Source: Campylobacteraceae bacterium (GTDB taxonomy: Bacteria > Campylobacterota > Campylobacteria > Campylobacterales > Sulfurovaceae). From it: 64,000 nucleotides of DNA. Within the stretch, counting starts at the first letter, position 1. Each line of letters opens with the position of its first letter. The notes under the pieces are model-generated. The model had not been told where the DNA came from. It ran no database searches and saw only the letters and a program-made list of their open reading frames with translations. Shown in pieces: positions 15,572-18,088 of this stretch. The DNA is taken from NCBI GenBank assembly GCA_027014605.1, contig JALWDJ010000071.1:1-64000 (forward strand), given 5' to 3'. Both the position numbers and the translations under genes were made by a program.

Positions 15572-15573
15572 AG

Positions 15574-15652
15574 TGTTTAAATATATTAAAAATATTTCAA
15601 TTGTAATGTTTCTTGTAAAATAACAGACAGTTTATGTGTCTGTTATTTTGTA
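15574..15652 (+). repeat. Left copy of ~80-bp direct repeat bounding the toxin-antitoxin island
   Basis: tgtttaaatatattaaaaatattt..ttgtaatgtttcttgtaaaataacagaca..tgtctgttattttgta; same sequence at 17233-17312. Confidence 0.95.
15617..15649. terminator. Perfect 13-bp stem, 7-nt loop hairpin (bidirectional terminator-like)
   Basis: AAAATAACAGACA-gtttatg-TGTCTGTTATTTT. Confidence 0.75.
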
Positions 15653-15716
15653 GTTTTTGGGGTATTTATTCAAGAAACAGCTTTACAATTAAGAATAAAT
15701 CTGATACAATTGATAT

Positions 15717-16028
15717 ATGGCTAAGTCAAAAAAGAAAAATTATATTAAAGTAATTGATGAACAGTTTATAGTTCCTTATGACAAAGGTGGAGGAATTATA
15801 AAGTTTGAGGCATGGGAATATAAAAACAAAGTAGTAAAATACAATATGGTTTACATTAACAAAAATCTATTTTCAAATGATAATGGAAGAGTGATGGGGT
15901 ATGATAATAGTCATAATTTTCATCATAAACACTATTTTGGCGAAATTTCAGAACTTGATGATTTTATAAGTTATCAAGAGTTAGTTCAAAGATTTAAAAA
16001 CGACATAAAGGAGTTTGTAACATGGTAA
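15717..16028 (+). CDS. TumE/DUF6516-like toxin of a type II TA pair
   Basis: Small protein with 'ELDDFISYQELVQRFKNDIKEF', directly followed by an HTH antitoxin-like ORF. Confidence 0.65.
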   Translation: MAKSKKKNYIKVIDEQFIVPYDKGGGIIKFEAWEYKNKVVKYNMVYINKNLFSNDNGRVMGYDNSHNFHHKHYFGEISELDDFISYQELVQRFKNDIKEFVTW

Positions 16029-16393
16029 ATATTCAAAATGGAACAATAGAGGATTTTTTTGATTCTGCATTGCAAACAGCCACACAGATTGATAAGGGCG
16101 AAAAAGTGACTCCCAAACATACAATTTGGATGGAAACGGATGATTTATTAAATATTCTAAAGCCACAAAGAACTAAACTAATACAATATCTTAAAAATAA
16201 AACTAAAATATATTATAGTGTGATACTTGATGAGCTTAAAAAATCACCATCAAGTTTAAATAAAGACTTAGAACTTTTATCTAAATATCAACTAATTGAT
16301 ATATTAAAAGAACCAAATGCTGGACATGGTATTAGAAAAGTTATAAAACCTTTATATTTAAATGAACAAATAGAATTTAGAGCAACTATATGA
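16022..16393 (+). CDS. TumA/HVO_A0114-like HTH antitoxin
   Basis: wHTH region 'RTKLIQYLKNKTKIYYSVILDELKKSPSSLNKDLELLSKYQLIDILKE'; overlaps the upstream toxin ORF. Confidence 0.65.
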   Translation: MVNIQNGTIEDFFDSALQTATQIDKGEKVTPKHTIWMETDDLLNILKPQRTKLIQYLKNKTKIYYSVILDELKKSPSSLNKDLELLSKYQLIDILKEPNAGHGIRKVIKPLYLNEQIEFRATI

Positions 16394-16419
16394 AAAATGG
16401 ATAACAAATCATAGGAGTG

Positions 16420-16445
16420 AATAAATGCCCAAGAGGGCATTTATT
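16420..16445. terminator. Perfect 11-bp stem, 4-nt loop hairpin between the TA modules
   Basis: AATAAATGCCC-aaga-GGGCATTTATT. Confidence 0.7.
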
Positions 16446-16545
16446 CGCCAGAGTCAACCAATATCATCAAAGTTAAATCTCCGTTTAATACTAAATTAAA
16501 TCTAAATTTGATACAATACAGAATCTTATTTAAAAGGTAGATTCA

Positions 16546-16818
16546 ATGTATTTAAGTCAAGATATAAAACCAATCAGTTACTTAAAAGCAAAAACGGCTG
16601 ATGTAATAAATAGTGTAAATGAAAATCAAAGAGCAATAATTATAACACAAAATGGCGAAGCAAAAGCAATTGTTCAAGATATTAGAAGTTATGAAAATTT
16701 AAAAAACTCTTTAAACTTATTAAAGTTAATCGTTCAAAGTGAAAATAATATTGAAAAAGGTAATATCATAAAACAAGAAGAGATGTTCAATAATTTAGAA
16801 CAGAGATTGTTTGGATAA
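16546..16818 (+). CDS. Phd/YefM family antitoxin
   Basis: 'DIKPISYLKAKTADVINSVNENQRAIIITQNGEAKAIVQDIRSYE'. Confidence 0.88.
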   Translation: MYLSQDIKPISYLKAKTADVINSVNENQRAIIITQNGEAKAIVQDIRSYENLKNSLNLLKLIVQSENNIEKGNIIKQEEMFNNLEQRLFG

Positions 16819-16823
16819 GTTGA

Positions 16824-17153
16824 ATGAAAAAGTTTGAAGTAATATGGACAAAAAATGCTAAATTTGATTTAGAACAAATTATTGAATATATTAAAATTGA
16901 GAGTCAAGATGTGGCAAAAAAAATTTTTTTTCAAATAAAAAAAGAGTGCGAGAATTTATATTATTTTCCAGGGAGAAAACGAATTGTACCTGAGCTGCAA
17001 CAAATCGGTATCTTAAAATATAGAGAAATTATCTATAAAAGATGGAGAATAATATATAAAATTGATAATACAAAAGTTTATGTTTTGTTAGTAGCAGATT
17101 CGAGTAGAAATTTGGAAGATATACTATTTCAAAGATTACTCGATATGAAATAA
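16824..17153 (+). CDS. RelE/ParE superfamily toxin
   Basis: 'IWTKNAKFDLEQIIEYI', 'ILKYREIIYKRWRIIYKIDNTKVYVLLVADSSRN'. Confidence 0.88.
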   Translation: MKKFEVIWTKNAKFDLEQIIEYIKIESQDVAKKIFFQIKKECENLYYFPGRKRIVPELQQIGILKYREIIYKRWRIIYKIDNTKVYVLLVADSSRNLEDILFQRLLDMK

Positions 17154-17232
17154 TAATGATAGTGATTGCTATATTATATATGGGAAGGAGACAAAAAAGA
17201 AACATTTATTATTTAAGTATTTTAATATTAAA

Positions 17233-17312
17233 TGTTTAAATATATTAAAAATATTTTAAATTGTAATGTTTCTTGTAAAATAACAGACATTTTATGTGTC
17301 TGTTATTTTGTA
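17233..17312 (+). repeat. Right copy of ~80-bp direct repeat bounding the toxin-antitoxin island
   Basis: About 3 differences from 15574-15652 by eye. Confidence 0.95.
17277..17309. terminator. Second copy of the 13-bp-stem hairpin
   Basis: AAAATAACAGACA-ttttatg-TGTCTGTTATTTT. Confidence 0.75.
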
Positions 17313-17377
17313 ATATTTAGGGTGTTTGTGTTATAGTGTTCCTTGAATCAATAGTTAGCCCAAGGAGAAAATAAACA

Positions 17378-17974
17378 TTGAAACAAATATTTGAAATAAC
17401 AGATAAAGAGACAATGAACCAAATATTAGACAATGCAGAATATGGAACTCTTGCTCTTTGTCATAATAATCAACCATATAGTTTAGCTATAAATTTTGTT
17501 AGAGTTGAAAATATTTTATACTTTCATGGAAGCTTGAAAGGTAAAAAGATAGATATTTTAAAAGGAAATCCATATGCTTCTTTTTCAGTTGTTGAAGCAT
17601 ACTCTATGATACAGTCATATTTTAGTTCAAAAGATAATCTTGCTTGTCCAGCAACACAATTTTTTAAATCTGTTATAATTGATGGAAAAATTGAGTTTGT
17701 TGAAAATTATGATGAAAAAGTTATAGCACTTTCAAAACTTATGGGAAAACTTCAACCAGAAGGAAAATATAAAGCTTTATCAGATGAAGCTTATCAAAAA
17801 GTTATCAATGCAACAGGAATATTTAAACTTAAAATAAAAGATATAAGAGCCAAATTTAAATTTGGGCAACATTTGAACAAAGATAGATTTGAAATGATTA
17901 TAAAACATTTAGAAGATAGAGGAGAAGAGATAGATATAGCTACAATTAAATTAATGAAAAGCTTAAAGGGCTAA
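17378..17974 (+). CDS. Pyridoxamine 5'-phosphate oxidase-fold flavin-binding protein
   Basis: 'YGTLALCHNNQPYSLAINFV', 'LYFHGSLKGKKIDILKGNPYASFSVVE'; TTG start after SD. Confidence 0.85.
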   Translation: MKQIFEITDKETMNQILDNAEYGTLALCHNNQPYSLAINFVRVENILYFHGSLKGKKIDILKGNPYASFSVVEAYSMIQSYFSSKDNLACPATQFFKSVIIDGKIEFVENYDEKVIALSKLMGKLQPEGKYKALSDEAYQKVINATGIFKLKIKDIRAKFKFGQHLNKDRFEMIIKHLEDRGEEIDIATIKLMKSLKG

Positions 17975-18088
17975 CAAATATTTCTCAACTCAATTGTTCA
18001 TGGAGTGGAGTATCAAAGTTACATCTGTTTTGTGCTAGTTTTGGTAACTCTCCAAGCTTTAAAAAAAATAAAAATAAGGAATTCTTAA

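Follow-up and report, generated by a model that had tools for sequence, protein, structure and literature searches.

The block inserted between the ankyrin gene (ank) and aroE in the window, the whole 64,000-nucleotide stretch of Campylobacteraceae DNA that was analysed, is very probably the remains of a chromosomal integron of the Campylobacterota type, or of two adjacent integron fragments, that lacks an integrase and in which two toxin-antitoxin (TA) pairs and a PNPOx-family gene are gene cassettes. From the ank stop onwards the block is composed of a first leader copy with an inverted attI core, a TumE/TumA cassette, a damaged attC, a Phd/ParE cassette whose attC is replaced by a second leader copy, an intact attI and a PNPOx cassette with a half-deleted attC, followed by aroE (Table 1).

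Table 1. Features of the inserted block, in window coordinates.
Feature	Position	Strand	Remarks
Whole inserted block	15572..18088	+	ank stop to aroE start; absent from nearest relative G015 (L053)
Leader copy 1 (repeat 1), left-truncated	15572..15662	+	85% identical over 100 bp to intI-attI region of L106
Palindrome/hairpin 2, leader copy 1	15617..15649	.	From sequence; covaries across 36 leaders
attI core of copy 1, inverted, Pc lost	15663..15674	-	12 nt, reverse complement of core, CTTGAATAAATA; direct sequence; sole occurrence in window
Promoter-like site before tumE	15682..15710	+	TTTACA-17-TACAAT with TG; such sites overall near shuffled expectation
TumE toxin gene, TA cassette 1	15717..16028	+	Pfam PF20126
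TumA-like HTH antitoxin gene	16022..16393	+	Pfam PF25212 (HVO_A0114-like), 25.7 against cut-off 27.6
attC closing cassette 1	16399..16466	+	R'' GGATAAC intact; 3' crossover box degenerate, AATATC not GTTATC
Phd/YefM antitoxin gene, TA cassette 2	16546..16818	+	PF02604, TIGR01552; 91% amino acid identity to attI-proximal G011 cassette
ParE/RelE toxin gene	16824..17153	+	PF05016; leader copy 2 stands in place of its attC
Leader copy 2 (repeat 2 and 5' extension)	17160..17331	+	89% identical over 167 bp to intI-attI region of L106
Palindrome/hairpin 2, leader copy 2	17277..17309	.	From sequence; covaries across 36 leaders
attI core with extended -10 (Pc-like)	17332..17356	+	TATAGTGTTCCTTGAATCAATAGTT; one mismatch to Campylobacterota attI core; crossover G/TT 17354-17356
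PNPOx-family gene cassette (ORF 17378-17974)	17355..17993	+	Start TTAGCCC; R'' GGGCTAAC 17968-17975; attC remnant right arm 17976-17993
Residual DNA, last cassette to aroE	17994..18088	+	About 95 bp; absent from G015

The block is absent from the nearest relative, G015, whose neighbouring proteins are about 85–95% identical and in which ank runs into aroE with a TAATG overlap. An earlier note on this DNA had described a discrete insertion bounded by two direct repeats. Its discreteness is borne out by this empty site, which was found in one close relative only; ank adjoining aroE was seen in none of the other genus members examined, and the island is not shared in synteny by relatives. The unit does not stop at the repeats: the insertion runs beyond them, takes in the PNPOx gene and reaches the start of aroE. 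The block would have reached this position after the split from G015, an order of events that we infer. The related unit in G011 is an insertion too: in about 20 other members of the genus its two flanking genes are neighbours, separated by a short gap.

The two near-identical repeats (about 15572–15664 and 17230–17324) agree in 86 out of 95 aligned columns. Homology to relatives extends over 17191–17360 and concerns the right copy only. In genomes of the same genus the repeat has a tyrosine recombinase gene on one side and, on the other, the cassette that opens an array. Repeat 2 matches the DNA that separates intI from the leading cassette in G011 (89%, 167 bp) and in G024 (81%, 179 bp), and the adjoining recombinases there reach 427 and 417 bits with the integron-integrase model, for which the cut-off is 265. 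Judged from their sequence, repeats 1 and 2 are copies of one integron leader, repeat 1 being damaged. The suggestion that the repeats are the attachment sequence of an undescribed integrase-less cassette was thus correct as to an attachment region and a genome without a detected integrase, but the sequence is an integron leader with attI that is accompanied by gene cassettes, not an unknown cassette type. As an exact 30-mer the repeat had no match in 85,462 genomes, and no leader family was found in Rfam. Partial matches in G004, G014, G018, G020 and G001 were set aside, being AT-rich stretches of 40–50 bp only with neither hairpin 2 nor the attI core.

The identical hairpins previously described in both repeats, AAAATAACAGACA/TGTCTGTTATTTT, are real; the window holds two matches to the 33-nt pattern, whereas 100 shuffles gave none. 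Alignment of window positions 17238–17356 with 35 related leaders identified this hairpin as one of two leader palindromes. Over the 36 leaders, 76% of cells were paired in the two helices as compared to 40–48% when slid, and the covariation score, counted on a named structure, was 0.217 versus 0.127 ± 0.012 upon shuffling. For the gapped alignment of leaders, RNAalifold gave no predicted consensus fold. Either protein binding at a symmetric site or folding of the strand would give this pattern. The two palindromes may act on intI and the cassette promoter, Pc, as an operator or insulator. A different explanation, in which chance duplication has left two copies of a common bidirectional terminator next to the TA genes, agrees with the AT-rich stem followed by T at 15613–15663 yet is most improbable: a genome-wide search returned only two strong copies in 1.98 Mb, and homologues lie between intI and attI in many integrons with similar spacing and covariation. 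This refutes termination as the whole account of the repeats, but ending transcription may still be among the functions of the palindrome.

A scan of named genomes found 80 IntI loci; those with a group name in the record are of the Campylobacterota type (e.g. Sulfurovum, Sulfurimonas). In 31 of the 80 a conserved core was located 195–277 bp upstream of intI. The core pattern derived from the IntI loci, close to TATAATGTTC-N-TTGAATAAATAGTT and with different sequences directly after it, is the attI site. In the block, an attI with a GTT crossover is present at 17332–17356, and the TG-TATAAT-like box before its core suggests a putative Pc. Right after leader copy 1, TATTTATTCAAG, the reverse complement of the attI core, is found instead and the promoter box is absent.

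The four small ORFs between the repeats and their families were confirmed. TumE, Phd/YefM and ParE pass the Pfam cut-off and the HVO_A0114-like HTH falls just below it, giving two pairs of small toxin and antitoxin genes of known type II families, PF20126 with the sub-threshold PF25212 and PF02604 with PF05016. Relatives of both pairs occur outside cassettes too. Using an attC covariance model built on 16 sites, most of them from IntI-linked arrays of related genomes, the site at the end of tumA scored 26.5 bits and was the sole match at E ≤ 1 in the whole genome (genome-wide E 0.1); the score is modest because the 3' box is degenerate. The TumE cassette of G006, whose protein is 94% identical to window TumE over the 48 residues available, starts with GTTATCC, complementary to the R'' of the window attC. 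This G006 cassette lies directly behind a comM-like gene, with TAGTTATCCTAAAA occurring twice and without a leader (L216 1434–1646, G006:C164), and by its sequence looks like an insertion at a non-attI site.

In G011, another species, the Phd/ParE pair shares 93.6% DNA identity with that of the window, follows a leader and attI that have no intI, and closes with a 54-bit attC. In the window the attC of parE is gone and leader copy 2 comes directly after the gene, such that leader and attI stand 3' of parE in place of the attC seen in the G011 homologue. A plasmid search returned short Phd matches only. As for the PNPOx cassette, its ends GTTAGCCC (start) and GGGCTAAC (end) pair at 8 of 8 positions. 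The right arm of a standard attC is kept while the left arm is deleted as compared to full-length attCs, and the remnant scores 10.2 bits, which is not significant by the model, so the case is made by the matching ends and the right arm. The block hence contains attC-ended cassettes with paired R''/R', cassette 1 by the model and cassette 3 by its ends and remnant arm. PNPOx relatives in the genus had neither a leader nor a model-scored attC alongside. Integrase-mediated recombination of attC with attI would have brought in each TA pair and the PNPOx gene as a circular cassette, either in this lineage or in a donor.

The genome itself has no TIGR02249 match over the cut-off of 265, the best reaching 38 bits in a 97-contig, 99.99% complete assembly whose gaps leave room for one, and no intI adjoins the attI of the block. 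For this genome the description of the block as integrase-less therefore holds. Plasmid relatives of IntI were all below 60% identical. In G015 an intI fragment with an in-frame TAG at about 181 is found at a contig end (L113 1–488, G015:C105). Damage within the block affects the forward attI of copy 1, which is lost, and the attCs: that of cassette 1 has a degenerate crossover, that of Phd/ParE has been replaced, and half of that of PNPOx is deleted. Given that no integron integrase is detected in the genome and that most recombination sites are damaged, the block is probably a locked remnant that is now immobile. The earlier note had it as an integrase-less element, bounded by its two repeats, that could excise by recombination between them. 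Direct repeats that are about 90% identical do flank the two TA pairs, and IntI1 excises attI-ORF-attI cassettes efficiently in published assays (PMC12901181). Such an element is nevertheless very unlikely, as the insertion passes repeat 2 to aroE, and units in relatives, such as G011:C182, have a single leader. Support for excision across the repeats is itself lacking because repeat 1 has lost the forward attI core, along with its promoter, and no integrase was found. The TA pairs may be functional and help to retain the integron remnant; stabilisation is plausible by analogy to TA cassettes of other integrons.

In the customary description, an integron consists of a single platform linked to its integrase, with residual attC clusters as the only possible addition. 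The distribution of attI relative to intI was evaluated by searching the core in 34 genomes of the genus at up to 3 mismatches and in 200 genomes of the order at 1 mismatch; the reversed control pattern gave no match in either set. Out of 57 distinct attI sites examined, 4 were left out on account of too little upstream DNA. Among the 53 with readable upstream DNA, 8 were linked to intI, 1 had an intI fragment and 44 had no intI within 700 bp. Contig breaks are not the explanation, since several, and in fact many, of the intI-less cores lie in single-contig genomes (G076, G100, G136, G171, G222), and attC sites are present in the same loci as many of them. In six species (L284, L285, L287, L305, L309, L311) the flank is 85–91% identical at the DNA level up to an intI-less attI, behind which the first cassettes are unrelated. 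The chromosome resumes 0.7–1.1 kb past attI in L287, L305, L309 and L311, approximately at the attC end in L287 and L311. At a second position, beside a gene that we take from its start sequence to be napA-like, unrelated first cassettes likewise follow an intI-less attI in three species. Four genomes (G011, G024, G212, G125) each combine a full intI platform with at least one attI core without a demonstrated intI.

The simplest reading of these loci suggests that intI was lost before the cassettes diverged and that integrase was supplied in trans. They would fit a satellite integron, in which leader, promoter, attI and cassettes are kept without intI and are served in trans by an integrase that is located elsewhere or arrives by transfer, the window block being a recently decayed example. 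We put this forward tentatively, at somewhat below an even chance: the genome of the block has no detectable integrase and the sites of the block are damaged, and transfer of the whole locus by homologous recombination, an alternative for the cassette differences, could swap cassettes too.

Several further loci were observed. The intI-less leaders at L107 3690–3740 and L109 405–440, from different species, both retain approximately the first ten codons of intI, and in L109 a transposase-like ORF is found nearby at the contig start. An intI-less attI with half of hairpin 2 is located beside a chromosomal gene in L029 1–340 (G006:C233), followed by a small ORF that is BrnT-like by eye. In G184 (L297 6304–13085) three attI cores are spaced at 3.1–3.6 kb; the sequences ahead of them are similar and look like the start of a transposase gene, not like the usual leader.

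Campylobacterota could accordingly carry dispersed satellite integrons at several chromosomal sites per genome, with cassettes exchanged by a trans-acting integrase and the window block a decayed member holding TA cassettes; we regard this as a real possibility, though one that still falls a little short of probable. If intI-less attI is the commoner state in the phylum and such sites still exchange cassettes, one integrase reaches far beyond its own array, and tools that seek only intI and attC miss landing sites. In the window block, TA cassettes persist after the recombination machinery has been lost. Integrons of Campylobacterota have already been listed (PMC8618304). The literature has also established attC clusters without an integron integrase (CALINs), the use of these clusters in trans and cassettes that carry TA genes (PMC8618304, PMC9668308, PMC12444791). 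A search of the open-access literature with limited terms found no description of intI-less attI platforms.

Compared to known systems, the block resembles a sedentary chromosomal integron in its attI core and leader, its attC-ended cassettes and its TA cassettes, but is very short, has most sites damaged and has intI neither adjoining nor detected in the genome. CALINs, which have been proposed as degraded integrons (PMC9024848; PMC8618304), likewise hold cassettes without an integrase. The block differs from these in keeping attI, leader and a Pc-like promoter, and whereas IntegronFinder 2 by default calls a CALIN from at least two attC sites without intI, the block has one scorable attC, the second being the 10.2-bit remnant. 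The Phd/ParE cassette is similar to the delta-attI2(-238) type, in which attC is replaced by attI and a long leader. Delta-attI-type cassettes have been described in class 1 and 2 integrons (PMC12901181), while the block is chromosomal, belongs to Campylobacterota and carries TA genes instead of resistance genes. Finally, attG insertions, i.e. cassettes at non-attI genomic sites, are comparable to the G006 TumE cassette, which stands behind a chromosomal gene without a leader; the units of the window, in contrast, carry an integron leader.
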